Origin: a virus
Direction: 5' to 3' (one strand)
DNA: 30,643 nt
Virus record (IMG/VR): IMGVR_UViG_3300006919_000261
Span: 1 to 30,643 of that record
In this document: piece after piece, positions 1 to 27,200 of the stretch
Numbering within the stretch: the first letter of the stretch is position 1
Layout: every line of letters starts with the position of its first letter
Program-made: the position numbers and the translations under genes
Notes under the pieces: model-generated
Database searches by the model: none
What the model was told of the DNA's origin: nothing
Seen by the model: only the letters and a program-made list of their open reading frames with translations

Positions 1-1315
1 CACGACGCTTTTCTTTTGATTTTCCTTCAAACTGTGGGGCATCGGATTTATAAAAATCTTTTACCACTTTCCCCATTTCTGCCTTTTGGAGATTTAATTT
101 CTCATCGAGTTCTAATCTCCAATTAGAAAAAGATTCATTTTTCTTACTAGGAGGAACTCTGATTGTTGTATTTCCTCCCGGTATTACATAAGTTCCATCA
201 GTTTCTTTCCACGGATGAACATTTACATTAAATGAGTCTAATTTTCTTAAGTTTTTTTTGCCTTGATCAATTACTTGTTGCCTAGTTTGTCCTTTTTTTC
301 TCATTGCAGAATTTCCACCACCAGCATTGTACTGTTGACGAACTACTCTAGATTGTTGTTGATACCAACCTTTTGGGTTATTTTTATTATCGTATGAAAA
401 TCTATTTGTTATTGCCGGTGGATCGTCAATGTTTTCTAAAACATCATAACCTTCTTTCTTAGTTTTATTTCCCCAGTTAGCAGCACCAACCTTACGACAC
501 TTAACTAATGCGCCAGATGCATAAGCAGATGGCCATACAGAATAGCGAGACTTGACCTTGTTATAACAAGCATCTTTTTTTCCTTCAATTATTTCATTTT
601 CTGGTTCATAATTGGATTCTTTAAATCCTTTATTTTTAATATATTTTTTTGTCCTTTCATCCTTAGTGGGATCAACATATATTGATGCTGGATAATTTTT
701 AGGAGGAATTGCTGTAGTAACAGGAACTAATTGTTCTGTCAATTCACTTCTCCAATTGGAAAAAGATGCTGAAATCATTTTTGCTTTACCTCTTCTATTT
801 GGATTTGGATCTTCTCTACGTTTTTTTCTTGCCCTTCTATTTCTTTCATCTTTACTCATCGCGGCTCTATCATCGGCATCACGACAAAATGGTTTAGTCT
901 TTTGTCCAGGTTGTTTTGCACAAGGTTTGCCATCATATTTGCCACCTGCTTGCACCCATCCACCACCTCTAAACCAGTCTTTTAAAGAATAATTTGGATC
1001 TTTCGCAGATTTTCCATCGCGATTTCCTTCGCCCATATAACTCGCAATAGCATCTGTATTGTGAGATGTATCTGTAGATTTTGCTTGAATCCATGCGGGT
1101 AAATTTTTTTCCTTTTTACCCACTTTTCTCAAAATATTATCAATATCTTTTTTAGATCCATTTAATTGGGATCTTAACATAGCAACTTCATGGTCTTGAT
1201 TTTTATCTTTTGCCTCGTTCATTCTTTTTTTACGTCCTTGACAATGGGCACGTTGACTAAAACCTTTTGGGTTGTTACAATCAATTAATTTTTTATATTT
1301 TTCAGACCAACCCAT
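1..1315 (-). CDS. Large basic marine-phage protein, 3' end cut by window edge
   Basis: An open frame runs from ATG at 1315 off the left edge with no stop; 438 residues are visible. Seen in order: a CNNPKGFSQRAHC segment at residues 13-25; LPAWIQAK at 72-79; a DWFRGGGWVQ...PC...FCRDADDR stretch at 112-150 followed by a very Arg/Lys-rich tract to about 178 (resembles the DUF5872-type motif, from memory); SFSNWRSEL at 184-192; a DACYNKVKSRYSVWPSAYAS...VKCRK block at 248-275; and a second SFSNWRLEL at 395-403. I recall the DACY...CRK block from many ocean-virus proteins, function unknown. Paired cysteines (13/25, 132/144, 250/273) could bind metal. It follows gp16 by 10 nt, where the large terminase gp17 is expected, and does not look like a terminase ATPase. 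A packaged head protein is my inference; see findings. Confidence 0.85.
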   Translation of the reverse strand, partial: MGWSEKYKKLIDCNNPKGFSQRAHCQGRKKRMNEAKDKNQDHEVAMLRSQLNGSKKDIDNILRKVGKKEKNLPAWIQAKSTDTSHNTDAIASYMGEGNRDGKSAKDPNYSLKDWFRGGGWVQAGGKYDGKPCAKQPGQKTKPFCRDADDRAAMSKDERNRRARKKRREDPNPNRRGKAKMISASFSNWRSELTEQLVPVTTAIPPKNYPASIYVDPTKDERTKKYIKNKGFKESNYEPENEIIEGKKDACYNKVKSRYSVWPSAYASGALVKCRKVGAANWGNKTKKEGYDVLENIDDPPAITNRFSYDNKNNPKGWYQQQSRVVRQQYNAGGGNSAMRKKGQTRQQVIDQGKKNLRKLDSFNVNVHPWKETDGTYVIPGGNTTIRVPPSKKNESFSNWRLELDEKLNLQKAEMGKVVKDFYKSDAPQFEGKSKEKRR

Positions 1316-1325
1316 TAGAAAAAAG

Positions 1326-1742
1326 TTACTCTTTATTATTTAGGAATCCTTGTTTAAGCATTTTTTGCAATTCGGAAGTTGATCCAACAAACACTGCATT
1401 ATTAGTTACATTATTAGTTGTTTTAATAGTATCTTCTTCAACATCTTTAAGTTTCTTTTGGAGATCAATTAACTTGTCAGTTGTATCTGCAACACTTTTA
1501 ATTAATTGTCCAGCAACTTCGTATGCTCTAGGACTTGCACCCTCTCCAGCAAGTTCCATGATTCCATTAATTGCCTCCTGTCCCTTTTCAATTAATGAAT
1601 ATAAATTTGCCCTTGTATATTCATAATCCTTCTCAATATCATTATCCTTTGACTTGGAAATTTGTATTTTATTAGTAGTTGTTTCTATAATACTACTTTC
1701 TGTATTCAGAGCCTTATCAAGACCATCATAATTACTAGACAT
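1326..1742 (-). CDS. gp16: Small terminase subunit, gp16-like
   Basis: The product is 138 aa, compared with 164 for T4 gp16. The small terminase recognises phage DNA and stimulates the gp17 ATPase/nuclease during head filling. The central part (about residues 43-101: YTRANLYSLIEKGQEAI, then GASPRAYEVAGQLIKSVADTTDKLIDLQKKL) has the long helical, coiled-coil-prone character and the SPRA(Y/F)EV signature I associate with this family in T4-like phages. The N-terminus is Ser/Thr/Asn-rich and acidic; the C-terminus ends in a short helix (SELQKMLKQGFL). A clear ribosome site (GAGGTAG) lies 5-8 nt before the ATG, overlapping the end of gp15. Position directly after gp13-gp14-gp15 supports the call. 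gp17 does not follow immediately, unlike in T4 where 16 and 17 overlap. Confidence 0.88.
   Translation of the reverse strand: MSSNYDGLDKALNTESSIIETTTNKIQISKSKDNDIEKDYEYTRANLYSLIEKGQEAINGIMELAGEGASPRAYEVAGQLIKSVADTTDKLIDLQKKLKDVEEDTIKTTNNVTNNAVFVGSTSELQKMLKQGFLNNKE
1338..1345 (-). promoter_or_regulatory. Weak late-promoter-like box, CCTAAATA
   Basis: The minus strand has CCTAAATA inside the end of gp16, 23-30 nt before the ATG of the left-edge gene. It matches TATAAATA at 6 of 8 positions. The spacing equals that of the better boxes in this window, but a chance match is quite possible. Confidence 0.25.
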
Positions 1743-6366: not shown

Positions 6367-6553
6367 TTACCAACTCCTTTATTAAAATTTTAAGTTCATT
6401 AATTTCTTTTCTCATAGTATCCAACTCTTTCTTTTGAGATTCTCTACGAGATGCTGAAGTCAAATAATTTATGTATGATGTAGAATCGCAATTAATTATA
6501 GCACCACTTTTTTCATCTCGATATAAATTTTGATACCCTTCTACTCTTATCAT
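6353..6553 (-). CDS. 66-aa small phage protein with C-terminal coiled coil
   Basis: The N-terminal half contains VEGYQNLYRDEKSGAIIN followed by CDSTSYINYL, a pattern I recognise from short conserved proteins of marine T4-like phages (xxGhxxLYRDexSGAIvNxD). The C-terminal half (about residues 36-62: RRESQKKELDTMRKEINELKILIKELV, heptad-like hydrophobics) should form a coiled coil. Its ATG overlaps the stop of the 2,391-aa gene by 4 nt (ATGA), so it is likely translated by re-initiation. The function is unknown. The location between a giant baseplate protein and the fibre genes suggests an assembly factor or small virion part, but this is inference. Confidence 0.85.
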   Translation of the reverse strand: MIRVEGYQNLYRDEKSGAIINCDSTSYINYLTSASRRESQKKELDTMRKEINELKILIKELVNGSK

Positions 6554-9500
6554 CGTTGGTAAGTTGCTATTGATCTAAGGTCTTTAAATCTTGGATATTT
6601 TGCCTGATTTGTACCAGACATTACTATCTTAATAGTATATCCAATAAACTCCCCGACATTATCGGCACTAAATTCATACTCCAAAAATTCATTTTCTAAA
6701 CTTGAGCGAACTTTATAATCCGCTCTTCCACTATTATTTGATGAATTTATTATTGTATACCCATTTTCATCAGTAAATGATAAATTATCATACCCAGGGA
6801 ATAATTCAAATTCTTGAGTTACTTCGCTTGAACCAGTTCTTATCAATTGATAAAGAGCTCTAAAATCAGCATCCTTATCCCTATAAGCAGAAACAAATAA
6901 TTTTAAACAATTTGCTGGATTATTTAATCTAACTGTATTAGAAACATAAATTGAAGCGTGTGGATCAAACTGTAAAGAATTTACTCTACCATCTGACGCA
7001 TAATTTGAGATTGGATTATTTAAACGTGCAGATCTAAATTCAGTTACTGGGAAAATTTCTCTACTATTTAAATAAATTATAGGAGATACGCTATCATTGT
7101 CAGATGAACGTGTTAAAGTTATTCCAGTTGTAAATGATTTATTTCTTGGCATATTGCTAAGATATTCTGTTTCATTTACTTCAGAACAAACAATTCTAGA
7201 AGATGACAATTTATTTAATTGATTAAGTTCGACGGGTTCAAATCCCTGATCAATAAATGGTATTTCCGAACCATCAACACTTGTTCCACTAATTGTTCTT
7301 ATAGATGCTGTTGAGGAAGTTTTTGATCCTGGTGTAAGTACATGATATTTTGGAATAAGTTCTGTAAATTCAATATTTTCAGAGGCAGTACAAGCATCTC
7401 CTCCTATATGAGATTCGTCAATAAATGACAATTCTGGGTAAAGAGATGTACTGTCAGATACTCTTGAGGCGCCGTCAGAAGATCTATCTACGGCAATATT
7501 GTACCCATCTATAGCGATGTTATTTGAATCTATTTGATGGGTTTTGTTTATCCTTCTTAAGGAGATTCCATTCAATTCATACTTATAAACTTCGGAATTG
7601 ATACTGTGCTTTGTTATTAATGTGCCATCCACTCCTCTTTGCGATATTGTGAGCGAATTTGCACCAACGTTACTATACTCGATGATTTCATTCTCAATTT
7701 TTATATATCCAAGATTGTTTGTGGGATCTATAGAAACACCCTCAAAGGAACTAAAAATAGACGAACTTAAGATATTAATTGTTCCTCCAGTAGAAGTATC
7801 CGCACTCAATTCTGATGATAAAGTTGTTGGAGCATAACTAGACTGAACATCATTTATTTTGACCTTATTTAAAGAAGAATACATTCCATGACCAAAATGA
7901 CGGACTCTGAAATAATTTCCTGAGAATTGCAAATCTGAAGGACCAGAAGATCTTGTTATAGTAGTATTTGCCAAACTTACTATTACCCCAGAATCATTGT
8001 AATAAAGTATTGGTACTGGTGGATTTGCTGTACCATTATCAAATGCCTTTCCGAATCCAAATTCGCCCTGAACACCTGCCAAGAATAATGTATCAATTCC
8101 TTCAATATCAGTAATAGTAAGTGTTCCATTTACGCCAAGATTATTACTAATATCGGCAGTTACAATTCCTACTACATCCCCTATCTGATAACCATTTCCA
8201 GGATTTGTAATACTCACAGATCCTGCAAGAGAACCCTCTGAAGGAGATAAAGTAACCTTTAAACCACTACCTTGTCCAATTACATTGAATGTTGATGCAT
8301 TCGTAATTGTTCCTGTATAATTAGATCCACCAGCAGTAACTTCAATATTTGAAACAGATGATCCTGTTCCTACAATAAAGGCAGAACTATTTGGTGTTGC
8401 ACCAGCAAGTTTTCTACCAACTCTAAGAATATCATCTCTCAAAACATCATAATTACTTTGACTTTCAAGGATTGTTGTAATTCCAATACTACCAGTTTTT
8501 GGTAAAGTCCTTATTGGATTATTTTCCAATTTGGGAACAAAATAATTACTTTCATTAAGGGTTGGATTATAGAAGAAAGCTGTGCCAGATGTCGCAGTAA
8601 ATTTTGCTTTATAGAGTTTAAATTTAAGATCTTGATATTGATTTGGTGTCCATGTGGACCCATTTTGAGACTTAAATAAACTTCCAAGAGCAAATTGTTT
8701 AGTATAAACTACAGACTCTGCATCTGGAAGAGATTGAATATTTGTTGCATCTTCTCCCATCTCAGCAATCCATAATTCATATTGATCTGTAGTTGGAGCA
8801 AGAGCAACAATTGCATATTCTTTGCCTGAAGAGAGATAAATTGGTTCTGGGAAAACTATATGAGTTGCTTCTTCTCCTGTTCTTGAAGTTTTTATATTAA
8901 TAACTTCAACCCCATTCTGATAAGTTCTTGGTCTTAATGTAACAGAATTGCCAACAACTTTTCTTGTTGGTATTCCAAGTTCAACCTCTCTAATTTCAAT
9001 AGTTATCTCATCATTTCCTGATGGAATATTTGCAAAGAATAAATCTATGGCAGTCAAAAAGGCGCCCTCAGTATCATCATTTATATTATCAATATTTTGT
9101 GATTGAGAATCTGAAATATTTCCGCCAACAGAAAATGTTTGAGCTAAAGGATCTCTATAAAATATTGGTGCTGGTGGTGGTGGATTTGTTCTTCCTATTT
9201 GAAGTTGTGTAACTTGCCATTGTCCTACGGAAGTGTATGAAGTCTCTGCAGAAGTTATTAATTTACTCCCTGGAAGTGGTTTTTCATTTGTAGGACTATT
9301 CGTTAATCTATAAGTCTTTGTTCCGGTAGAAATTCTAACGGAAGGAGGTGGACTTGTAAGTGGATTTCTCGTAAAGAATGTTCCGGTAAGATCTCCATAA
9401 TTATCAGAAATCAATCTCAAATCTTTAATATAAGCAATTGCGCCACTTGTTTGTCCAACCAGTAACATTCCTTTTGTCACATAACCAGAATATCTACCTT

Positions 9501-12500
9501 GAGCAAACTGTGCTAATGAGAAAGTATCAACATTTAATACTTCCGAAGATTGACTATACTCTGAGGGCATTTCTGCTTTAGTATATGGATTTATATTATA
9601 TGTTAATGTTGGTGAATTAAATGCACCTTCTTTATGATTTGAAGTTGCTAATCTGAACCTTATAAGATTTCTTCCATCAGAAGAACCAACAACATCTTCA
9701 CCAACAATAAAATTACCTGAAGAACCAGATGTTTCTAAGGTATCATCTGTTGCAATTTCAATTAATTTTGGAATAAAATCAACACCATTATTTCCATCAA
9801 GGAATTGATAAAATCTAGTTAGAGGTTTTAAATTAACAACTGAAAATTCAGTATTCCTAGACCTCATAAATTGTTCAGAACCAGAAGAAATGATAACCCA
9901 AGATGCAAAAGTTACAATAGAACCCCATCCTATATTAGCAACTCCTCCTCCAATTGTTCTAACCCAAGAATCACTTGCCGGAGTTAATTTTACTGTTCCA
10001 ATATATTCTACTACATGGAATGGATTTACATTTTCAACTCTAGTAGCAAGAGGTTGTTCTATCCACCCAATAGTTTCATACTTTAATGTGACCGCTTGTC
10101 CGGTTTTTTGTACGTTGGAATCTAATAAAGTATTATTTGAATATAGATCTAATTCTTGATCGGAAGATTCTTCTTTAAAAGATAATAAACTTTCTAAACT
10201 ATTTCTGCTTATAAATGGCGTTAATTCTTTATTTTCAGAATCAACACTGACGGAAGATTGATTCAAATTAATTAATGAATTATTTTTAAAATCATCTACA
10301 AAAAATCCACTCTTAAATCTATCATTGCCATTAGCATCTCTAATTTGAAGTGACTGCACACCTAATTCTAATAAAGATAATGATGTTACTTTTTCTAAGG
10401 TTTCTACTCGGTCTTCTATGATACCAATATCTCTCATAGTATATCTTTTGTTATCAACTAAAGATATTTCAATGTCTTTGGAATCATACAAATATGGTGG
10501 CAAGGTAATGGTTGCCAATTCCATTACATCGTCTGTATTTGTTATAGGAGATTGGGGAGATATGGATGATGTTCCTTTTTTAACGAATAAAGTTCCCAAT
10601 TTGTCGATGTAGAGTTTGTCAATTCTTCCAAGATAAAATTCATATCCTATAATTGAGTCTTCGTTTGGAGCTAAGAATCTTGTTGGTTCTGATGCAAAAT
10701 TTCTCGAATCAAAATCAAAAGGAGATGATGAAGGTGATGATGGATTAAAATAAGAAACTCTTGGGCGGAAATCTAAAGTATCACTTGCCCTAACTTTATT
10801 TGGACCAATTTCTGGGACATCTTCAGGGAATCTTTCTTTATCATAACTTAAAACTGTAAACACATCTCCACTATCCGAAGAATCTACATTATAATAATCA
10901 AAAATTATTGAGATTCTTTTTGATGGTACTGGTGCATTTAGATCTCTTACAATTCTAGAATAATCATAATACTGTTCTTTTTGTGCTTTATCCAAATAAT
11001 ATGAACTTGTAATATTCTTATACTTACCTACTGTTAATGTGCTAATATTCCTTAAAATATTAGATTCCTCAAAATAAACTTTCTCACCCTTTGCAAATCT
11101 ATCATTATTTAAATAAACAACAGCAACAGTATTTGATGGTAATGAACCATTAGTAGAACTATTTTGTATAATTCTAGCTACTGAATTACTACTATCACTA
11201 ACAATATTTTCGCCAACGATGCTATCACTTACGCTACTTGGAAATGTTATTTTATCGAAAACTGGATCTAAAGAATCGAGTGATTCGTATACTGCTAAAA
11301 CTTTTACAACATCTGGTCTATTTAAAGAAATTTCCTCGTCCTGAACTCTCAGTCCATAATAATTACTTGTTGTCAATCCACTTATAGAAGTTGTGACGCC
11401 AGAAATTGATTTGTCTACGGTCAATAATTCACTTCTTATATAAGTTTTTATTTTACTTTTTATACCATTTTTTATTAAAGTTGTGCTAGTAACTGCATCA
11501 TCCCCGTCAATCAGATTTCTAATTGTCACTTCATTCGTAGTATGATCAAAAGAATCTGCAGTTATTGTTCCAATTCCTCCTGCGGAATAATGAACTGAAT
11601 ATCTTTCTGCATCAAATCCTGCAAAATTTACACTAGATATTCCACTAAAATCAGTAGTAGAGTTTAAAACTAATTGATTTGAAGAAGTAGTTTTTGATAC
11701 TTGTTCTCTTATGTATAAATTTGATGTTGAAAGATTTATTGATGAAATATTAGATTCTGGAAGTTTTTCATACAAATATGAAGAATTATTATTTCTAGTT
11801 AATGGGACGCCTAGATTGACGGAATAAGTTCCATCTTCAATAGCACCATCAAACACATCTGTTACAGTTTGAATACCCGATAAATTTAAAGTCAATCCAT
11901 CAGCAGAAATAGATGAAACTCTGTTAAAAGTTTCGGTCTTAAATCCTGCAGTAGTTCTTTGATATATTATAATACTATCTGTTTTAATTCCAGTAAATAC
12001 TTTTCCTGGACTAGTAGCAGTTTGTCCACTAATCGTTAATTCGGAAACATTATTTGGAAATGATATTTTATCTAAAAATGTGTCTGCACTGAAATTAAAT
12101 GCCCCGGATCCCGCTTGACTTACTGATTTAATATCTTCTGTTCCATATGTTTTGACTGATGTAATAGTTCTAGAAATATCTGTACCATTTAGGGATATTT
12201 GTTCTCCTACAGAAAATGTTCCTGAAGTTTGAGTTAAAGTAAGTTCTGTTCCAGTACTAGAAGCAATTGTAAATCCATTAGCATTAGTATTCTTACCCTT
12301 TACATACGAAGATTTTGCTGCAACTAAAGATGTATTTAAACCTACAATAGTATAAGTTTGAATATCATAGAGATATAAATCCCATTTTGTTTGATTTCCT
12401 ACATATGCCGAATCAGTTAAATTAAAAGCATATAATCTTCCTTTTCCAATACCAACTCCAGATGCTCCATGTTGACTATGAAAATTGATTATGCTTCTTT

Positions 12501-13725
12501 GCGCAGGAATACCGGAAACATTATTAACTCTCAAAAGATTTCCCATAGTAAATGGGACATTAGCATTAGAAATTGATTTGGTATCCCTTGGCTTCTCTAC
12601 ATCAATAATTGTTGTTCCTGATGTTTGTACATCATATCCCTTTACATATGCCTTTCCTGGTGATACCATAACACACATCAAGTCATCTGATGGCGTATTC
12701 AATTGATCAGTTTTTTGATTTGAAAAATATAAACCATCACTTCCAATTTTATTGTTTAATGAATTATGTACAGACACATTAAATGGATTGACAGAATAAC
12801 TTCCAGATTCATCATTTGTTCTGTCTGCAATATAATCTTTAATCAAATTATATTGAGTTTTTGATTCGATAAATTTTTTCTTACCATCCTGAACTCTTAA
12901 AAGTTCCACAAAATCTGTATCATTAAGATCTGTTAGAAGTTTTTTGGAAAGAGTCAGAGTAATTTTTAGTCTATCTGCTCCAGGTGCGGCATAGTTTGAA
13001 AAACCTTTTGCATTATCATATAATGATGAGTCATCTTTTGCAGAAATGATGTCCTCATTAATTGATAATCCTATTCTATATGAAGGAAAATTTGTATATT
13101 CGTCTAATAAAATTGTTTGTTTTGAAACCTTTACAAAATGACCTCTAATAAAATAAATTCCATTATCTATAGAAGCTGATGATCCAATAAAAGTGGCATT
13201 TAAGTTAATCAGAGAAGCGAATGGAGTCCCTGCAGATATAGTAGTATTTCCATAAACAATATTCTCATCAGAAATCAAAGATTCTCCATCTTCAAACTGA
13301 TTGAAAATAAATTCGTTATTTGAATCAATATATTTGACATAAATTGTAATATCACTAATATTATTATTTTCTTCTGGAAATGCAATATATTGAATAGTTG
13401 CTGTTGTACCAGAGTTTTGTCCTATTATTTTTTTGCCAATATAATTTCTAATATAAAGAGAAATATCTATTCCAAAATTTGAAGAATTTAATTTTACAGC
13501 GTAAAATTGCCTATCATAAGAAATTCCACCAGGAGATACTACAGATCCTTCTTTAAATATGTGACTGCCAAAACTTTCTACTTGATTTTGTAAAATAGAT
13601 TGTAGTGTTGTTAGTTCTCTTGCTTGTACTGGAAATCCAGGTTTAAATAAAACCCTATAAAAATTATTATCAGAATTAAAATCATCATAATATGGGTTGA
13701 TATTTAAATTTCTTTTTTGTGCCAT
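6550..13725 (-). CDS. 2,391-aa baseplate/tail-fibre structural protein with DUF4815-like N-terminus
   Basis: A giant virion protein in the place of T4 genes 9-12. Residues 1-75 (NINPYYDDFNSDNNFYRVLFKPGFPVQARELTTLQ, then ILQNQVESFGSHIFKEGSVVSPGG) and about 185-265 (YFIRGHFVKV, PSYRIGLSINE, NAKGFSNYAAPGADRL) match the DUF4815 pattern of marine myovirus structural proteins, by memory. Around residues 1525-1660 is a DPLAQTFSV...GAFLTAIDLFFANIP...VFPEPIYLSSGKEYAIVALAP domain, beta-sandwich-like and possibly ligand- or fibre-binding. Around 1770-1810 there are GxNY/GNGY repeats, and around 1998-2036 an IENEIIEYS...QRGVDG module. The C-terminus (RLNNPISNYAS to FPGYDNL to KDLRSIATYQR) is typical of the family. 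It follows gp8 by 6 nt and has no strong ribosome site. The exact T4 counterpart (gp10-like or novel) is uncertain. Confidence 0.85.
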   Translation of the reverse strand: MAQKRNLNINPYYDDFNSDNNFYRVLFKPGFPVQARELTTLQSILQNQVESFGSHIFKEGSVVSPGGISYDRQFYAVKLNSSNFGIDISLYIRNYIGKKIIGQNSGTTATIQYIAFPEENNNISDITIYVKYIDSNNEFIFNQFEDGESLISDENIVYGNTTISAGTPFASLINLNATFIGSSASIDNGIYFIRGHFVKVSKQTILLDEYTNFPSYRIGLSINEDIISAKDDSSLYDNAKGFSNYAAPGADRLKITLTLSKKLLTDLNDTDFVELLRVQDGKKKFIESKTQYNLIKDYIADRTNDESGSYSVNPFNVSVHNSLNNKIGSDGLYFSNQKTDQLNTPSDDLMCVMVSPGKAYVKGYDVQTSGTTIIDVEKPRDTKSISNANVPFTMGNLLRVNNVSGIPAQRSIINFHSQHGASGVGIGKGRLYAFNLTDSAYVGNQTKWDLYLYDIQTYTIVGLNTSLVAAKSSYVKGKNTNANGFTIASSTGTELTLTQTSGTFSVGEQISLNGTDISRTITSVKTYGTEDIKSVSQAGSGAFNFSADTFLDKISFPNNVSELTISGQTATSPGKVFTGIKTDSIIIYQRTTAGFKTETFNRVSSISADGLTLNLSGIQTVTDVFDGAIEDGTYSVNLGVPLTRNNNSSYLYEKLPESNISSINLSTSNLYIREQVSKTTSSNQLVLNSTTDFSGISSVNFAGFDAERYSVHYSAGGIGTITADSFDHTTNEVTIRNLIDGDDAVTSTTLIKNGIKSKIKTYIRSELLTVDKSISGVTTSISGLTTSNYYGLRVQDEEISLNRPDVVKVLAVYESLDSLDPVFDKITFPSSVSDSIVGENIVSDSSNSVARIIQNSSTNGSLPSNTVAVVYLNNDRFAKGEKVYFEESNILRNISTLTVGKYKNITSSYYLDKAQKEQYYDYSRIVRDLNAPVPSKRISIIFDYYNVDSSDSGDVFTVLSYDKERFPEDVPEIGPNKVRASDTLDFRPRVSYFNPSSPSSSPFDFDSRNFASEPTRFLAPNEDSIIGYEFYLGRIDKLYIDKLGTLFVKKGTSSISPQSPITNTDDVMELATITLPPYLYDSKDIEISLVDNKRYTMRDIGIIEDRVETLEKVTSLSLLELGVQSLQIRDANGNDRFKSGFFVDDFKNNSLINLNQSSVSVDSENKELTPFISRNSLESLLSFKEESSDQELDLYSNNTLLDSNVQKTGQAVTLKYETIGWIEQPLATRVENVNPFHVVEYIGTVKLTPASDSWVRTIGGGVANIGWGSIVTFASWVIISSGSEQFMRSRNTEFSVVNLKPLTRFYQFLDGNNGVDFIPKLIEIATDDTLETSGSSGNFIVGEDVVGSSDGRNLIRFRLATSNHKEGAFNSPTLTYNINPYTKAEMPSEYSQSSEVLNVDTFSLAQFAQGRYSGYVTKGMLLVGQTSGAIAYIKDLRLISDNYGDLTGTFFTRNPLTSPPPSVRISTGTKTYRLTNSPTNEKPLPGSKLITSAETSYTSVGQWQVTQLQIGRTNPPPPAPIFYRDPLAQTFSVGGNISDSQSQNIDNINDDTEGAFLTAIDLFFANIPSGNDEITIEIREVELGIPTRKVVGNSVTLRPRTYQNGVEVINIKTSRTGEEATHIVFPEPIYLSSGKEYAIVALAPTTDQYELWIAEMGEDATNIQSLPDAESVVYTKQFALGSLFKSQNGSTWTPNQYQDLKFKLYKAKFTATSGTAFFYNPTLNESNYFVPKLENNPIRTLPKTGSIGITTILESQSNYDVLRDDILRVGRKLAGATPNSSAFIVGTGSSVSNIEVTAGGSNYTGTITNASTFNVIGQGSGLKVTLSPSEGSLAGSVSITNPGNGYQIGDVVGIVTADISNNLGVNGTLTITDIEGIDTLFLAGVQGEFGFGKAFDNGTANPPVPILYYNDSGVIVSLANTTITRSSGPSDLQFSGNYFRVRHFGHGMYSSLNKVKINDVQSSYAPTTLSSELSADTSTGGTINILSSSIFSSFEGVSIDPTNNLGYIKIENEIIEYSNVGANSLTISQRGVDGTLITKHSINSEVYKYELNGISLRRINKTHQIDSNNIAIDGYNIAVDRSSDGASRVSDSTSLYPELSFIDESHIGGDACTASENIEFTELIPKYHVLTPGSKTSSTASIRTISGTSVDGSEIPFIDQGFEPVELNQLNKLSSSRIVCSEVNETEYLSNMPRNKSFTTGITLTRSSDNDSVSPIIYLNSREIFPVTEFRSARLNNPISNYASDGRVNSLQFDPHASIYVSNTVRLNNPANCLKLFVSAYRDKDADFRALYQLIRTGSSEVTQEFELFPGYDNLSFTDENGYTIINSSNNSGRADYKVRSSLENEFLEYEFSADNVGEFIGYTIKIVMSGTNQAKYPRFKDLRSIATYQR

Positions 13726-15296: not shown

Positions 15297-18200
15297 TCAT
15301 TTGCCAAGAGCGCCAGTATATCTAACACCAAAAGATCCCCTTCTTTGAACGGATGGAAATGAAGATAATCCAGCATCAATAGTTAGACCAGTGACTCCTA
15401 TAGAAATTTGAGATATTGTAACATTTGACATTCTTCCCCAAGAGAATCTTCCTACCGGATTCTCTATACTTCCTGTAGATGTAATACCAACAACTGAAGT
15501 ATCTGGATGAATATAACATGTAACTATTCCAAGATTTCCTGTAATAGGTTGCCAATTTCCTATTGAATAATAAACATTGTCTATAAATGAAGTTCCTATA
15601 CCAACTGTATTAATTCCAGTCACATCCATAGAAGTTACTCCATTACCAACTCTAGTATCAAAAATATAGATTGGAGTTCCAGTTATTATTGATTTTCCTG
15701 TATTATCAATAATATCATCATTATCCGAATATATGCTAAACTCAATTCCCAAATTAGATCCATTGGAAGTTGTTCCAATGCCTGTAATTATTCCGGAGAA
15801 TCCAGTAATATTTGCTGTATTAATTCCAGTTATCATCTCATAATTTACATTTGGAGATGATACTAAAACCTTTGGTACAATTGAATTTGTATATCCGAAA
15901 CCAGGATTAACAATACTTACAGAATTTACTGATCCTAATCCATTTATGGATGCAGTTGCCGTTGCAGTAGTTCCAATACCTATGCCTATGATAGGTGGAG
16001 CAGAAATTGATATTGTAGGTGTAGATGTATATCCAGATCCTCCATCAATAATATCAACTAAAATAGTTCCACCAACACCGACAGTTGCTGTAATTGCGGC
16101 AGAAACTGGATCCGAAGATCCCTGAGAAACTATCAACAAATCAAATAAATTTCCATCAGTATCTTCTTTAAAAAATTCTGCATTGTCTAAGAATATATCA
16201 GTGGAACTAGTATTCAGATCTTTTATAATTCTTGCAGAAGGATAAATTTGTGATTGAATAGATTCTCTAATTTTTGATTCAAACACTCCATTTATTTTTT
16301 GATCTCTCTTTTGTTTTATTAAGTTGATAGGTCTATATGAAGTGCTTATGCCTTGATTATAATAAGTATTTGTCTCAACTTTATCGGAATACCTCAAATC
16401 ATATACAATTCTCTTATCTTGCTCTAAAATTTTATTGAAACCTGTAAGTTGAAGAGAATCTCCCACATGAATAAATTCTTTTATATCATCTTTATTGATA
16501 GTGTCTGAACCCTCTACTCCTTTATAGAAGAAAATATCAATATTATCTTCCGAACTCGGAGCCTCAAGAAAATCGAATGATGTTCCGCCATCAAATACGT
16601 AAGATTGTCCTGGTTTTTGTATTATTCCATTTATTATAATAAGCAAATGATTTGAAAAATCTATTTCTTTGCCATCCTTAGATTCAAAAGAACGTATCTG
16701 TTGATTATAATACAATGGGAAATTAGTTCTAGTACCATCTTGGTAATCTTTAATACTATCAATATAGTCAAAGTCTCCTAATTGCCATAGTGCAAAATCG
16801 TCACTGTAAACATCAAGAACCTCTAACGTAAATGGTTCTAAAGGTTCTGATAATCTTGCATCTGTTACTAATCCAACTAAAGTAAATTTATCACCTCTCT
16901 TGAATTCATACCCCTGTCTAGAAATATTAAAAGACTTAACTTCAAAATGAGTTGATCCAATACCAACAGTTGTAGAAGCTGCGCCAACTTCTACACTCAC
17001 TTGAAGACCTCTTCCAGTATCTGTAGTAGATCCTACTCCTAATCTAGAAATTCCTATAGGATTTAGATTACCATACGATGGAGAATCGACAAATATTTGT
17101 GGGTTTGTATATCCAGAACCACCATCAGTCACATTAAATGTTAATGTTCCACCAACACCTACGGTTGCAGTAATTTCTGCAGTATCTCCAGTATGTCCCT
17201 CTTCAAAGACACTGACACCAATAGGAACTATTCCATTATATCCAGAACCAACAATATCTGTAGATCCAATACCGATACTATTTTGAATAACACCACCACT
17301 AACCACTGCTGTTACAGAAGCGCCTACAAGTGGTGCATAACCTAATCCACCCGTAGATCCTAATGATACAACAAGACCTCCTCTAGGGACCTCATTTCTA
17401 TTAACATCAACTTCTGAAGAGAAGATACTTGTAGTATTTGGAACTGTTATACCACTGAATACAACCGTAGAAATTCCGGCAGTAGAATCACTGGTTATAA
17501 TAAAATTATTTGATGGATTATTATCAGTTTCTGGTGTTTGGAATAAACCATTTAAGAACAGAAGTCCATTTTGATTTTGTCCATCTTCTGTTCCAAGTCC
17601 AACTGCAGTATTTGCGCCACCAACCGTTAATGTAAATGTTCTACCAATTCCCGTAAATTGATCCGAAATATCATCATAAATCTGATTACTTGAGTAATCA
17701 CTTCTAAAGTAGACTCTACCAGTAAATTCAGATGTTGGTGTGTCAAGATTCATAATATTTTTATCTTCATTTGCATTACCTCTTGGAGCATCTGTAAAGA
17801 ATATATCCGATCCAACAATATTGTAAGATCCTTTATATACAGTTGCAATTCCTGTAGTATCATTATGTGATGTTGATATGCTACCAAGAATTCCTCTCTC
17901 AACCTCAACTAATGCAGTTGTTCCAATACCTGTTATTGGTCCTACACTAGTTGTTCCAAATCCTACATTTACAACTTTCATGTACTCATCATCAATTCTA
18001 ATAATACTATTTGCTGATATTGATGATATTCCACTCAAAGAGAACGTTGTTGCAGTTGTGCTAATTGATCCACCATTACCATCTAAAGGTTGATTGATTG
18101 GTGTAAAGATTAGTGGGTACTGTACAATATTATCTAATGTAATGACTGCCTTTTCATTTCTCTTTGCCATTTCAAATTGATGAGCATTACCTTCTCCCAC

Positions 18201-21200
18201 ACCAGTAAATGTAACCGCTGTTCCCGATCTTGTAGTTGAAATTTTGAATGAATTTTCATTTACAACAATAGCAAAAACATTAGATGGTAAAGTATCAACT
18301 ATGCCTGCAGATGAATTTTCATATTGCATCGGAGTAGATCCAACACCAACAAAAGTTGATTTTGGAGTATAAATTAGTTCTTCATTATTTCTAAAGAAGT
18401 GATTATCAATAGAAAATACTCCGGTAGAAAGATTTACTGTAGTGGAATCTGAAGGATTAAAAGTTTTTGCGAATATAGGAGTTCCATCTGTCTTTAGTGT
18501 AAATTGCTTCTTATTTCCAATGTCTCCATTAATACCTGCATATGTAGATACATATGTAGATTCTTTCATATTACCATAAACTAAATCATTTGGAATATTT
18601 ACATTATCAATATTCGTAAAGAATGCTTCATTATATGACTGAATATAAAGATTTTGTGGTGGTTGTAGGGTATCATCATAATCATTATATGCAGCAAATT
18701 TTAATTCAAAATTAGAACCAGAAAATTCAGTTGTAAAAGTACCTATACCAGCATAAACATAATCCTCAGCATCTGTAAAGAGGAATTCATTTGTTTGCAT
18801 ATACGTATTGGTAGAATCGTGTATAACTAATACCTGATAAAGTGCTACAGTATTCCCAACTGAAACCTGAACTAAAGACTTGACTGTGTTAAATTTTGAT
18901 GAATCTAAAGAGTAAACGATTGGTTCTGCAGTATATCCAGCAGGAGGATCATCCAGTTTATTAGAAACCCAATTGGTAAAATACTTAACACTCTCTACAG
19001 AATTGTCATCATCACTTTGACCAGTAGTTCTAAATCTATGAGTTCCATTGCCTAAAGAAGTAGTTCCAATTCCAATAATTCTTGAATTAATTAGAATATC
19101 ATTTGAAGATGAGTCATTAGTAAAGTTAAGACTTATCACTCCAGTATTTGTATCAATATCTGATCCAAATGATCCAATATTATTCCCACTAAATATTTTC
19201 CCAGTAGAATCATAATATGACTCTAACATATATGGCATTGATCCATCATGTGTGAGTTTAATATCAACAAAATTTAAATCTTTAGTTACAGTATCACGAA
19301 CTTCGGCACTAAATGCGATAGATCCAGTAGTAGTGGTTGTAAAACCTATAATTGTAGTTGTTATTCCAGAAGATACTAAATGTGTAGAATTTGTGAGATT
19401 TACAAATCCAAATGTTGTAGTTGCTACTCCAACAATAGAATCAATATTTTCTTTTTCAATGACTTTTATATTATAATCCCTAGTATATGGATCAACTGGT
19501 TCAAATATTAGGAAATTTCTACCAAAATCATCAGTAATAACAGAAAACTGTCCATAATTATTTTCTGATGTATGAATCGAATCTTCGTCTATATTTGATA
19601 GTTCTCCTTTATTGAGAAGAGAAATATCATCTCCATTATTCAAAATAACTAAATCTGACAATTGAATTTGAGTATTATTGTTGTCAGTAACTCTTACTAA
19701 TAGATTTTTATATCTATCATTTTCAGTAATTTGATAAATTTTTGCATACAAATCTGGATTATCTAAATCTTTTAAATTTGAAAACTCATTATTAATGTCA
19801 TCAATAGAATATACTAAATTATCTTGAATTTGTGTATATGAAGATAATGTAATATTCTTAAACTTGATAAATTTGCTCCTATTTGATAATATTTCCAAAT
19901 CCTTTGCAAAATCAAATCCATAAACAGTATCAACTCTATTATCACTAATCAAATCAATTATAGTGGTTGTTCCATCATCACTACCTATTCCAATTGATTT
20001 TGAAGAAATTATTTCAGTATCCGCAAAATTCTTCATTCCACTTGTATGTAATAAATCATTGATAGGTGTTTTTTGATTATCCCAAGTGATTGGACTCTTA
20101 ATAGAATAAGATAATGTTTGATAATAATCATTATTAGAAGTTCTTTGTTGATTATCATTCAATAATCCAACAGAATCAAACCATCCAAGATTTTTTTTAT
20201 TAGAATAATTCACATAAAATCTACCTTTATTAATATGAATTTTATCAATTACAGCTGAATTTTTAGATTGTTTTCCTAATAATAAATCAGATATTTTTAA
20301 ATCATGTCTATAAGAACCGGATAGTTTTACAAAATTATCATAACCAGAAATAATAAATAAATCTTTTTCTAATCCATTTACAAGTAACTGCTCTCCGTCC
20401 ATAAAATTTGATAGAGCAATTTTAACGTCAAATATTGGATAATCTGATTGTGGAATTATTGTAGCAAATGAATCCTGTATTGTTTTAGCAATACCAGTAT
20501 TTGTGGTCAATCCAGAAATATTTAAAGTTACTTTGGATGGATTATCACTTGTCCCTGGAGTTCCTACGTAATTACTAACTTCAAAGAATTTATATCCATA
20601 ATCCTCAGAATTAAATCCTGTTCCATCTGACCCATTTTTTATAATACCTTCTATAAAAACTTTTTGTCCTTGAACAAATGGAGATTCTGTAAATCCCAAA
20701 ATAGGTGTTGTAATATGACAAGTGAATATTCCAGTAGAATCTGATTCTACCTTTGTAATACTAATTCCATTAGTATTATTTGTCGCAAATAAATTTACAC
20801 CATTATCAGGCAATCCTTTCGGATATAAATCTATATCTATTTTTGAAATAGAAGAACCTACTAAAGTTGCTTTTAATAAACCAGTATCAATAACTTGATT
20901 AGTTTGAGAATCTGTAATTACTATGGATGGTGGAATAGAATATCCAATTCCACCATCTGTAACAGAAACGAATCCAATAGTATTTGAGTTTTTTGTTGTT
21001 ATAATTGGTGCTACAAAAGCTGATGGATTCAATGTCGGATCTGATGGATATTGGAATATATTATTAACTACTCTAACTTCTTTAGAATTTCCAATTGTAC
21101 TTGACTCTAAAGAAATATTTGCATTTTTGCCTTCACTGGTTTTAAATTTTAAAACTTTTGGTAGTTTTTTATATCCAGAACCTGTAGAAATAATCTTAAT

Positions 21201-24200
21201 ATTATCAATACCACCTTTTGAGTTCAATGAATTTGTTGAATACTCTAATATACTACACTCATTATTCGTATAAGAAGATCTTTCTGGGTTCTTATTCAAA
21301 ACTATATTGAAATAAGTATTTCCGACTCCAGATATTTTGTAAGTTCCAGTATAAACACTATCAATGTATATGATTTCATTATAATTTATTACTGTATTAT
21401 CAGATGTGCTAATATAACCAGATTTTTCTAAATTATAATAAAGTTTTGTAGGAAGTTTAGCATTATAAAGCGTAGTTAAAGTTGCTCCAGAATTTCCAGG
21501 AGTTCCTAAACCAATTACATTAAAATTATTTGATGAACCAGTTGATACAAATTCATTCTTAAATTCATTGTCGGTATATATTTTTAAATTATAACCTAAT
21601 AAAGAAGAATCTGAAAGATCAAAAACTAAATTATTTCCTTTAACTATTGTTATTTGCGAATTTATGAGAGAGATATTTTGATTTTCGCCACCAGTAGATC
21701 CAATAGCAATGATTGATGGTGGATTTAATTGCGTATCATAATATGTTTTTGATAATTGGAAAGTATCATCATCAACTTTATATACATAATAATCCGAATT
21801 ATTTAATCCTAATGGAAGTACATTGGAAGAGTATTTAATTTTATCGCCTGTCTTAAAATTATGAGAATTAATAACAATAGTACTATTTGAAGTATTGATA
21901 CCAGTAGAATTAAATCCTAAATTGTTTATTAATAGTTTTTCAGTATTTGTATCTCTAATCAATCTAATCGATGTAGAATTTCCAATGCCAGAATTTAGAT
22001 TTGATTGTAAAGATAAATTGATAGTATCACCATTAGACAGATAATGTGAAGTAGAAACTGAAACTTTGGTATTTACTTTTTTGATGTTTCCAATTACCTG
22101 AATTACATTACTTTCAAGTAAGTATTCATCACTATCGAGACCTCCTCCACGGAAAAATATTTTATTAGAGTCGATAGTTGTCTTTATTCCAATCAGATCT
22201 TTTCCTATATTTGAAACATAAACATTCGTTGTAAGACCTGACTGCGGAAGATTGAATGTTGGTCCATCACTAGAAGTTGATATTGAAATTGCCCCTCCGC
22301 TAGGAACTGTTAGTGTAATTAATTCATTATTTGCGAAAGAATGATTCTTAATATAAATTGACTGTGAAGGAATTTCTCTTGTTAAAGATGATATTCCAAA
22401 TGAGAAAGTTACTGAAGTAGATACGCCTACTTCCGTTCCAAATCCAATAGATTTTGTTGGATTAAAATATTCTTTATTATTGGGATATGAATTAAAATAA
22501 TTAGATTCTACTGGTATAGTAAAAGAATCTGGGATAAAGTTTATTAAGGCTCCGGTTGAGTGACCTACATTAATATCTCCTCTTTTAACTGTCAATATTT
22601 TTTCTTTTTTAAAAATATTTAAAATCTTTAGTGTTTCTGATCCAATAATTGCACTACTTCCAATAGATATTGGAGGAATCTCGGAAACATATATTTCTGT
22701 AGATCCTATACTCGATACGGATGGAATATTGAATGTTAAACTTGATGTATATGAAGATACACCTATATTAAATGATCCATTTAATGATGAATCTGTGCTA
22801 AATCCGGATATAGTTACACTATCTCCATCAACAAAATTATGATACGGAAATACATTTACTTGTACTTCATTTAAATTGTTCCAAACAAAAACTCCACTTT
22901 CATTTTGAGTTGTAGTCTCTACGGAAACAATATCTTTTCCTTTTATGGAAGATATTTTTGCAGACAATCCACTACCACTTGTTCCTGTATTGTCAATTTC
23001 TAACGTATCATTAACTTTATAATCAGTTCCAGAATAAACAATATTAATTTTATTTACTGAACCTTCACTTACTGATTCTATGATAGATTTTTGATTTGAT
23101 AATTCTACCGAATCTTCAACAAAGTCATAATCAGAAGTTCTATCCGACATATTGTACGGAAATGTGTTTCTAATCAAATTTGATGCTCTAAAGTCAAATG
23201 ATTGATTAATTGTAGAGTTTTCTGAAATATAGTCGGATCTATACTTATTCCCTATAAAATATGGAAATATTGGATTCAAATATTCGTCGATAGTTGCATA
23301 GTACGCATAAATCCCGTCAGGAAATTCGTCTGTTTTTGCAAATCTTCCATTATATTCATCTAAATGACAATCAGATGGATTTGTAAATACATAATCTTCA
23401 ACAAACATTCCAGATCCAAAATCATTAATAGAAGGTCTATCAATAATATTTGTTATATCGAGAGTATATCCAGTTTTTAATCTAGTTACATCGGACCTTA
23501 TTCCTGGATTATTATATCCATATGGTCCATATATTGGATTTCCATCATATGCCCATCCAATAATGGGGGAATGCTTAGAACTATTATCTATATTTAAATA
23601 ATCTAATGAATAACCAACAATTGAATATTGCAAATTATTGTCCGTTGCCATAACTATATCATTTTGTCCAAATCTCATCCTATTATTGATAGTCAAAGAT
23701 CTTACATTAGAATCGATGATAGCATTTGAACCTGAAGAAATTACTTTAATTGATGTTGATGTTGAAGAATAACCAATTCCGGCAGATATTATTTTTACAT
23801 CTGAAATTTTTCCATTATCAATAATTGCCCTCAATTTTGCACCAGATCCTGTGCCAGAAGAATCTATTACATCTAAAGTGGGAACTGAATAAAATTCTCT
23901 TCCACCATATTCAATACTTACAGAATTAATTTGACCATTTATAATATTTGGCACAAGTTTTGCATCAATGCCTGTTTTGATTGTTATAGTAGGTGTCTTT
24001 TCTAAATTTATAATCGAGGATCCATATCCTGTTCCTTCCTCATACAAGTATGCATCTATGATACTTCCACTAATTGAAGGAGTAAGATTAATAATTCTCT
24101 CTTGTGTTGTAGTGCCTAATCCAACATTGGTATAAACCAATGATGCAGTAATATTTGGATACTTAAAATATTGATAACCAGTACCAGTAGATTCTAATTT

Positions 24201-27200
24201 AATATATTCTTTTCTCTTAAAATTAGAAGTTATTGTTCCTCCAATGCCTGCGTCACACAATCTAAAAGTATTATGATCTTGTTTTAAAATAAAATATTGA
24301 TTTGTGGTAGTTAATCCGCTTATAGGAGAAGTTTCATAATCATATTCAATTAGATCACCATTATTAAAATTATGATTCTTAAAGTAAACTGTATCATAAG
24401 AAGTTGATATGCCAGATGGTTTGACAATTAACTTTCTATTTGTATATCCACTTCCATTTTTTATAACTTTAATTTCAGATACTGTGTTTTTTATCGATGA
24501 TGTTGTGAATTTATGAATTCCTGATGTATTTGCTGTAATAAATCCTACAGTATTAATTCCACTTATGTAATCTGATTTAGTTTCAAATAACTGAATTGCC
24601 TTATTATTGAGAATGTGGGCAAAATATTTGGAATTATTTGATAAAGTTAGAGTGGATGATTCTAAAGTACCTATACCAAGAGATGTATTTCCAGAATTAT
24701 TGTAAATAATTTCTTCACCACTACTAAAATTATGGTTGTCAATAAAAGTTAAAGTATTACCTACTGTATTAATTCCTCCACCATTTTCAACTGTTCTCGC
24801 ATCAAAAAATACTGATCTATTTCTTTTTGATACTACTGCTTCTAAAACAGCACCAGATCCATTTCCTCCCTTCAATGATACCGAAATAACTTTATCTATT
24901 TCAAAATCTTGAGAATCTACAAATACTTCTTTTACTGAACCACTAATAACTGGTTGTACTAAAGCAGTATTTCCAACTCCTCCCAATATTGAAATCTTGG
25001 GCAAATTAATTACATCATAATTTGTTCCGGAATTTAAAACTTTAACAGATTCTAGAGGACCATAATACACTTTATCATTAGACTTATAATTTGTAATTTC
25101 AACACCATTTATGAGCATTCCAATAGAACCAATTTCTGTTTCTTGGTTACTAGAATTTTTTATATTTGGATTTAATATAAATTTTTTCAGTAATTTTTGC
25201 GGACTTATATAATTATCTTTTTGTTTTGTTAGTGTAAAGACATCTTCAGAATTCGGTTGTTGTCCAGAAGACTTTCTCATTTTAACATAATTATTTGTAC
25301 CAATAAGAGAATTAGAAGTATAGAGTCTCATTTTATTTGAGTCTTTTAAAACTTCAACAAAATAATTTCCTGTCGATAATCCTATTATTGGATTGCCAGA
25401 AGGTTGATATGTAATTTGATCTCCACTTAAGAATGGAATATTATTTTCATTAGATAATGAAGCATAATATTCATTTTCCAATTCATCAATTAAGGATAGA
25501 TTATTAATTGATTTTACTGATATTGATGGTTGATATTCATAAGAATATATTCCATCTCCTACAGTTCCAGATGGTAAAGAATTTGAAGCAACATACATGT
25601 ATTCATTGCCGTCACTATAGACATTTTGAATGTCTGATACTGCCTTAGATTGATATTGCACACCAGAAATAATTGGGTTTCTGATTTTTCTTCTCAATCC
25701 ATAGTTAATGTTGCTATCATATTGAATTGATGGGTTAAATCCTCCAATATCGACAGTATATGCCCCATAGGAAATTTCATTCTCAACATAACCTGTGGCA
25801 ATTACAATATTTTTTACTTTATCAACAATTTCTAAAGGATCGCCTTTTTTTAAATTGGATTTATCTACAGGACTTGTTAATTTAAATTGAGATCCAGTAA
25901 AAGTTTCTACATTAAAAGTAGAACTTGTATTATAAATCCATGAATTTGCAAAAATTTCTTTTTTAGTGGGATTAGATCTTGGATTTCTTATCAATTCGCC
26001 CAAAGAATCTACAAAAATTTCATCTTGTTCATCAACTTTAAAAATATCAGAAGTTTGAATAAAATCTGATAATGAACCGGAAATTGAAAATTCTACCTTT
26101 TTTGTAATATCACCATTTTCATATCCATAATAAGTGTCATTGGATATTATATCTGATTTTATTTGTATAGGAGTAGTTATATTACTACAACCAAAAAATT
26201 GATTTATACTTTTACTTGAATATGTAATTTTATTTGATCCTGAAAAAATAGTTCCACTTTCTGGAAAACCTATAGTAGAATCTACCGTAATTACAGTATC
26301 TGATATATCTACATATTCCAATACTTTTGTTTTTGGAGTTATTGAAAACTCTCCCTGAATATTTGGAGAATCAGTATATCCAATAAACAAAGAAATTTTA
26401 AAATATTCGACACCATTCCTATTAAAAGGTTCAATCTCTGAAACAGATGCACTAACTGAAGAATCCAAAGATCTGTATATATTTTGTCCTTCTAAATTTA
26501 AAGGATTTGAAGAACTAGTTATAATATCAGCGAGTACAATTTCTCTTCTTATATAATTTGCACTAGATGGTTTTAATAAATAATTTTCTAAATTTATTAC
26601 CTTAGGTGTTACTCCATATAAAACATTAAAAAGAATTCTAAAAGATTCATTTGTACCTTTTGATTCATAAAAACCTCTTGCTTGTTTTATGAAATTTCCA
26701 ATATTAACATTATTTGCGAATGAAAGCTCTTCAAATCCTGGTAAAAATGTTTTCTTTATTTTTGCAAAAAATTCTTTAAGAAATAATGAACTTAAATTCT
26801 CTACAAAAGCATTTGCACTATGAGTAGATGCACTAGTCGTGTTAAAAACTAATTCCTCTCTATTTAAATCTTGCTTATATCTCTCAATTCCGCTAAATCC
26901 ACGAATACATCCTAAGAAAGAATTTTCTGTTTTTTCTGTATATGTAATAATTTCATTATCAATCTTTAACAGACCATATTTGTTAGGAAATCCTTTTGTA
27001 TTTGGAGAAACAATAATTGTAGTATCATTTGTACCAATATTTTCTACTAGAATATTTGAACCAGTTGTTATTTCTGGTATTAAATTGTCTGGTTTTAAAT
27101 ATTGATCTAAATTTTCGACAATATCAATGGGACCACCTTGATATTCTTGCGAAATATAATATTGTTCTAAAAATTTAGAAGCGTTTGGACTTTCGTCCAA

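Follow-up and report, generated by a model that had tools for sequence, protein, structure and literature searches.

The open reading frame at the left edge of the window (the whole stretch of 30,643 nucleotides analysed here, IMG/VR record IMGVR_UViG_3300006919_000261) probably encodes a modular prohead polyprotein which, judging from its sequence and those of its relatives, is predicted to be cut by the T4-type prohead protease gp21. We observed a mosaic of modules, an enrichment of a protease-like site at the junctions between them, and the occurrence of modules as free-standing genes where a gp21 homologue is lacking. In the mechanism we propose, the gene product would be a precursor of internal head proteins, in which acidic and mostly disordered linkers connect small modules, most of them basic, with a putative recognition site [LIMV]xE for a gp21 homologue at most junctions. 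The uncut precursor would go into the prohead core, possibly docked there by F-x-x-aromatic linker peptides such as FSNWR, and gp21 would cleave behind Glu as the head matures; the freed modules would bind to the packaged DNA and remain there, perhaps to be ejected alongside it. The first-pass annotation, which had suggested a polyprotein-like internal head protein cut at two sites, is broadly right and understated: the basic character, the virion-associated relatives, the gp21-type sites and the presence of gp21 in relatives' genomes agree with it, whereas the number of sites has to be raised from two to about one per junction, amounting to six in the truncated window protein.

The window protein and its mosaic family

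The window is T4-like cyanophage DNA carrying gp16, gp15, gp14 and baseplate genes, and the closest named relatives of the phage belong to the Kyanoviridae. The polyprotein frame (2-1315, minus strand) encodes 438 amino acids and has lost its C-terminus, that is, its 3' end, at the contig edge; in relatives, a C-terminal CT module (DUF6321) follows. It adjoins the gene of the terminase small subunit gp16 (1326-1742, minus strand; PF11053 and phrog_445), which bears out its earlier placement beside packaging genes. The gene is labelled hypothetical in most records of the family. Searches of the C-terminally truncated window protein against Pfam and NCBIfam returned nothing significant, including no match above the Pfam gathering score to DUF6321 (PF19846) or DUF5661 (PF18905), both of which relatives carry as modules, and a PDB fold search with its structural model gave a single, meaningless match (E 7.3). 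Elsewhere in the window, two giant frames of 3991 and 2391 amino acids in the baseplate region (15297-27272 and 6550-13725) correspond by position to a virion structural protein and a 'virulence-associated' (VriC/VrlC) protein of S-SRM01.

All features of the protein lie on the minus strand. It begins with MGWSEKYKKLIDC and lacks an N-terminal targeting peptide with aromatics at positions 4 and 7. Its modules, recognised with our own profiles, are MGW (residues 1-31, 1223-1315; 76.9 bits, pLDDT about 90), HEY (residues 41-94, 1034-1195; 74.9 bits), the basic DWF (residues 108-179, 779-994; 92.5 bits, pLDDT 74-89) and the basic DACY (residues 246-284, 464-580; 93.5 bits, pLDDT 78-90). A further shuffled block (residues 298-380, 176-424) shares 34% identity over 87 columns with a block of the relative L012 (E 4e-10, pairwise comparison); it stands N-terminal of DACY in L012 and C-terminal of DACY here, and the window protein is therefore itself a product of shuffling. 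All six [LIMV]xE sequences lie outside the four profiled modules. Three follow the strict (L/I)xE form, namely LTE194 and LDE405, which end the two linker motifs FSNWRSELTE (residues 185-194, 734-763) and FSNWRLELDE (residues 396-405, 101-130) with a predicted cut after the Glu, and IIE244 (584-592), two residues ahead of DACY. The remaining three are the M or V variants MNE34 at the MGW/HEY junction (1214-1222), MGE96 at the HEY/DWF junction (1028-1036) and VLE294 C-terminal of DACY (434-442). The AlphaFold model places the sites mostly in stretches of low confidence (pLDDT below 50 at MGE96 and IIE244), E34 being the exception in a predicted helix with pLDDT 70-78; a second model, of an MGW-HRMD-...-CT polyprotein, was too poor for use (mean pLDDT 45.6).

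For the family as a whole, we annotated 270 non-redundant relatives drawn from IMG/VR with profiles built for 11 blocks. The same short blocks recur in varying order, at least 11 modules being shuffled into 80 architectures with 45 ordered neighbour pairs and up to 8 modules per protein. Six blocks (RYC, GYYW, DWF, DACY, CT and MGW) are clearly basic, at +8 to +28 per 100 residues, and KCW was counted as a seventh; of the others, one is acidic and three are close to neutral. Two or three Cys residues are present in several blocks, and the linkers are acidic (-4.4 per 100 residues). The CT block equals DUF6321 and the HRMD block DUF5661. DACY was found in 366 phage records, which are cyanophages nearly throughout. 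We also noted a DUF192 domain (PF02643) inserted whole as a module and flanked by candidate protease sites (L109:2673-4886, L121:3995-5929, L132 and L143).

Junction sites and the FSNWR linker

The T4 protease gp21 cuts after L/I-x-E, and Asp in place of this Glu blocks processing (PMC9026906). The earlier suggestion that the window protein follows this rule is supported by LTE194 and LDE405 themselves as well as by the family: of 585 non-redundant linkers, 485 contain [LIMV]xE, where shuffled sequences reach 304±10, and 372 contain [LIM]xE, where they reach 236±12, although such statistics exaggerate independence even after pruning, because linkers share descent. No matching rise was seen for [LIMV]xD (206 vs 188±9), and control motifs with D or K for E, or without a spacer, exceeded the shuffles hardly or not at all; lengthening the spacer to two or three residues ([LIMV]xxE and so on) left a smaller excess, and Ex[LIM] was also somewhat enriched. 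When up to 20 residues ahead of each module were taken and pruned to below 60% identity, [LIMV]xE preceded DACY in 44 of 48 contexts (21 in shuffles), DWF in 47 of 52 (15), KCW in 71 of 77 (34), KMFF in 31 of 32 (16) and CT in 57 of 67 (27), corresponding to 85-97% as opposed to 28-50% in shuffled contexts. Among Glu residues, 29% outside modules are the P1 residue of such a site, compared with 11% within modules, and per 100 residues, linkers contain 2.22 [LIM]xE, modules 0.44 and the frames of three complete genomes 1.05-1.19. At the junctions, M and V are frequent at P3 besides L and I, and Ala is 2.9-fold enriched directly behind the predicted cut. Less favourably, the site is often missing ahead of RYC and HEY, at junctions that may hold larger units together, and LH[TA]E is a frequent form of the KMFF-CT junction. 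The major capsid proteins of these phages have inferred sites of the same form, with a slash marking the cut (FLSE/A, FLAE/A, LLTE/A, ILTE/T), and small KMFF proteins encoded nearby begin with the T4-type targeting peptide MKSFKQFISE/S.

The FSNWRxELxE pair pointed out in the first-pass annotation is real, with SFSNWRSELTE at residues 184-194 and SFSNWRLELDE at residues 395-405. A degenerate DNA pattern for the motif, allowing up to two mismatches, matched the 30.6 kb only at these two places (101-130 and 734-763, both on the minus strand); after dinucleotide shuffling the mean was 0.01 matches, and none of 100 shuffles had two. The near-identity of the underlying DNA, 17 of 18 bases between 116-133 and 749-766, likewise exists, but both stretches code for one and the same peptide, SFSNWR, with AT-rich codons, and the codons that follow differ (AGT GAA TTG ACA GAA as opposed to TTA GAA CTC GAT GAG). 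The DNA match is thus no evidence of a recent duplication, which can be ruled out since the similarity ends at the conserved peptide; what is conserved is the peptide. The motif is internal, as had been said, and its two copies are two of many interchangeable linkers. FSNWRxELxE is indeed one interchangeable linker among several: the wider WR motif was seen at 12 junction types, and in a few polyproteins KTFSQFMVE/A or KSFDEFMSE/A occupies the equivalent position.

Whether FSNWR also targets the capsid is a separate matter. Compared with the T4 targeting peptide, FSNWRxELxE keeps the processing residues 8 and 10 (L and E) and the aromatic at position 4, and has E at position 7 instead of the F of T4. 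Aromatic pairs in linkers are clearly enriched for the i+3 spacing only, which, together with the resemblance of KTFSQFMVE/A and KSFDEFMSE/A to the N-terminal peptide of the KMFF proteins, makes docking by the FSNWR linker plausible. The idea is weakened by the lack of both an FSNWR-type motif and an FxxF peptide in 49 of 145 complete polyproteins, about a third, and we put capsid targeting forward as a tentative suggestion that is somewhat more likely to fail than to hold. Whole genomes were scanned for the motif in three phages, S-SRM01, S-SCSM1 and P-SSM2, the window phage being represented by its 30.6-kb fragment. Both matches in S-SCSM1 (gp029 and gp280) are annotated as virion proteins, the match in S-SRM01 lies in the polyprotein, and P-SSM2 has matches in PSSM2_123 and PSSM2_125 along with one probable chance match.

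Virion association, free-standing modules and alternative readings

Virion association is published for relatives of the window protein in S-CREM2 and S-SCSM1. Mass spectrometry of S-CREM2 virions detected ORF160, a DWF-KCW-DACY protein, with 7 peptides, as well as ORF136 and ORF137 (PMC10665884), of which the former starts with MQTFSMFFSE and the latter has KMFF and CT modules. S-SCSM1 virions have also been studied by mass spectrometry (PMC9602691), and gp029, gp280 and the NMNAT gp281 are all entered as virion proteins in the record of this phage. The NMNAT/cytidylyltransferases start with a T4-type targeting peptide, MKSFLQFLKE/A in S-SCSM1 gp281 (L355:4820-6049) and MKNFHQFITE/A in S-SRM01 gp258 (L356:5429-6751), which would account for the puzzling presence of this enzyme in virions. 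A further S-SCSM1 virion protein of 69 residues, gp279 (L355:7627-7836), has the targeting-peptide-like C-terminus TFKEFLEYIE. In addition, the N-terminal arm of the major capsid protein is copied in small proteins (GFTGAAAPEGPVAGYDPLM compared with GFTGAAAPGGPNAGFDPVM), namely S-CREM2 gp160 (L084:38343-39236) and an S-SCSM1 protein near positions 9122-9307 of L355 that is annotated 'major head protein'; this copy is perhaps a shell-binding element.

DACY or CT occurs as a free gene in five small phages. In Roseobacter phage CRP-7 (L363:46322-46968), three adjacent small genes beside terL, gp63-gp65, encode a DWF-like protein (by eye), a DACY protein (profile E 7e-13) and a CT-like protein (E 1e-8), and in phage DSL-LC04 (L358:1429-2636), CT comes directly after the genes for capsid and cement proteins, and frames resembling DACY and DWF lie nearby; in both, the module genes are small basic neighbours of the terminase or capsid gene. 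The gp21 family phrog_207 had no match in any of these five small phages. Among 12 records with a polyprotein it was present in 11, and the other one is a fragment; the window ends before the gp21 region. Fused modules with sites thus accompany a gp21-type protease and free genes its absence, in what is a small sample. Of 61 free CT copies in small-phage contigs, 3 carry the site, a control that is weakened by the seemingly Glu-poor flanks of these copies.

Several other readings have to be weighed against a precursor cut by gp21. The protein could remain whole, as a virion or core protein of several domains, in which [LIMV]xE would represent short scaffold- or core-binding motifs or helix caps in flexible linkers. 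Flexibly linked mosaic proteins are commonplace, and the acidity of the linkers together with the mild enrichment of other hydrophobic-Glu spacings would suit such a protein; it explains less well why the excess is sharpest at exactly one spacer residue and for E rather than D, why the same site form recurs in the capsid and targeting-peptide proteins of the same phages, and why free CT copies so rarely have it, and we regard this alternative as unlikely. Far less probable still is a non-virion protein for DNA packaging or host takeover that came to lie between gp16 and gp17 by coincidence and whose motif serves another function: relatives were found in purified virions of S-CREM2 and S-SCSM1, which outweighs in our opinion the adjoining terminase small subunit gene, the prevalent label 'hypothetical' and the variability known for the region between gp16 and gp17 (PMC3037559). 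That two similar decapeptides arose by chance or composition within an acidic low-complexity linker can practically be dismissed; the linkers are Glu-rich, but the shuffles refute this reading, with 0.01 matches expected in the window and 69 of the 585 linkers between modules containing [FY]xxWR, as opposed to 0.7±0.8 after shuffling.

Significance and comparison with known systems

If the polyprotein is cut as predicted, a tailed phage would use a Gag-like logic, in which several head-internal proteins are made as one precursor, in a fixed ratio, and are separated at maturation. We consider it an evenly balanced proposition that T4-like cyanophages carry a polyprotein of exchangeable cassettes, whose modules are separate genes of the head region in other phages and are here strung together with prohead-protease sites. 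A single gene would then supply several mini-proteins in fixed stoichiometry to the head, and possibly to the host, and new cargo such as DUF192 would be gained by inserting a module together with its own site. This would also provide a rule for spotting head-packaged cargo in marine phages, either by an FxxF[IL]xE start or by modules between [LIMV]xE sites. Our literature search, in which coverage of subscription journals was thin, found no description of a modular cyanophage prohead polyprotein.

Among described systems, the polyvalent proteins of phages and plasmids (PMC5512222), by their description, resemble the family in being long and multidomain with variable domain order; unlike them, it has short modules, mostly basic DUFs (DUF6321, DUF5661, in some cases DUF192), which are regularly separated by a protease-like site. 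The inner-body and ejection proteins of phiKZ-like and SPN3US-like giant phages are head-internal proteins with multiple protease sites after Glu, as predicted for the polyprotein, but there the sites lie in removable propeptide regions and the phiKZ motif is S/A-x-E (PMC9026906); a shuffled cassette of small modules was not found in the literature covered on these phages. Several gp21 cuts per core protein are known from T4 gp22 and gp67, some fragments of which are kept in the head (PMC9026906), yet these scaffolds are mostly removed as peptides, whereas the pieces between the predicted cuts of the polyprotein are conserved, recombining modules. T4 IPI, IPII, IPIII and Alt, whose targeting peptide gp21 removes, are basic proteins or cargo inside the head, the location proposed for the polyprotein; gp21-type L/I-x-E sites and aromatics upstream are common to both, and small proteins with the canonical peptide occur in the same cyanophages as the polyproteins. 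The T4 proteins have one N-terminal peptide and yield one product; proteins of the window type have internal sites at most junctions and several predicted products. Without an N-terminal peptide, the window protein is not of the T4 IP type by strict membership, although it probably operates on the same principle, multiplied many times.
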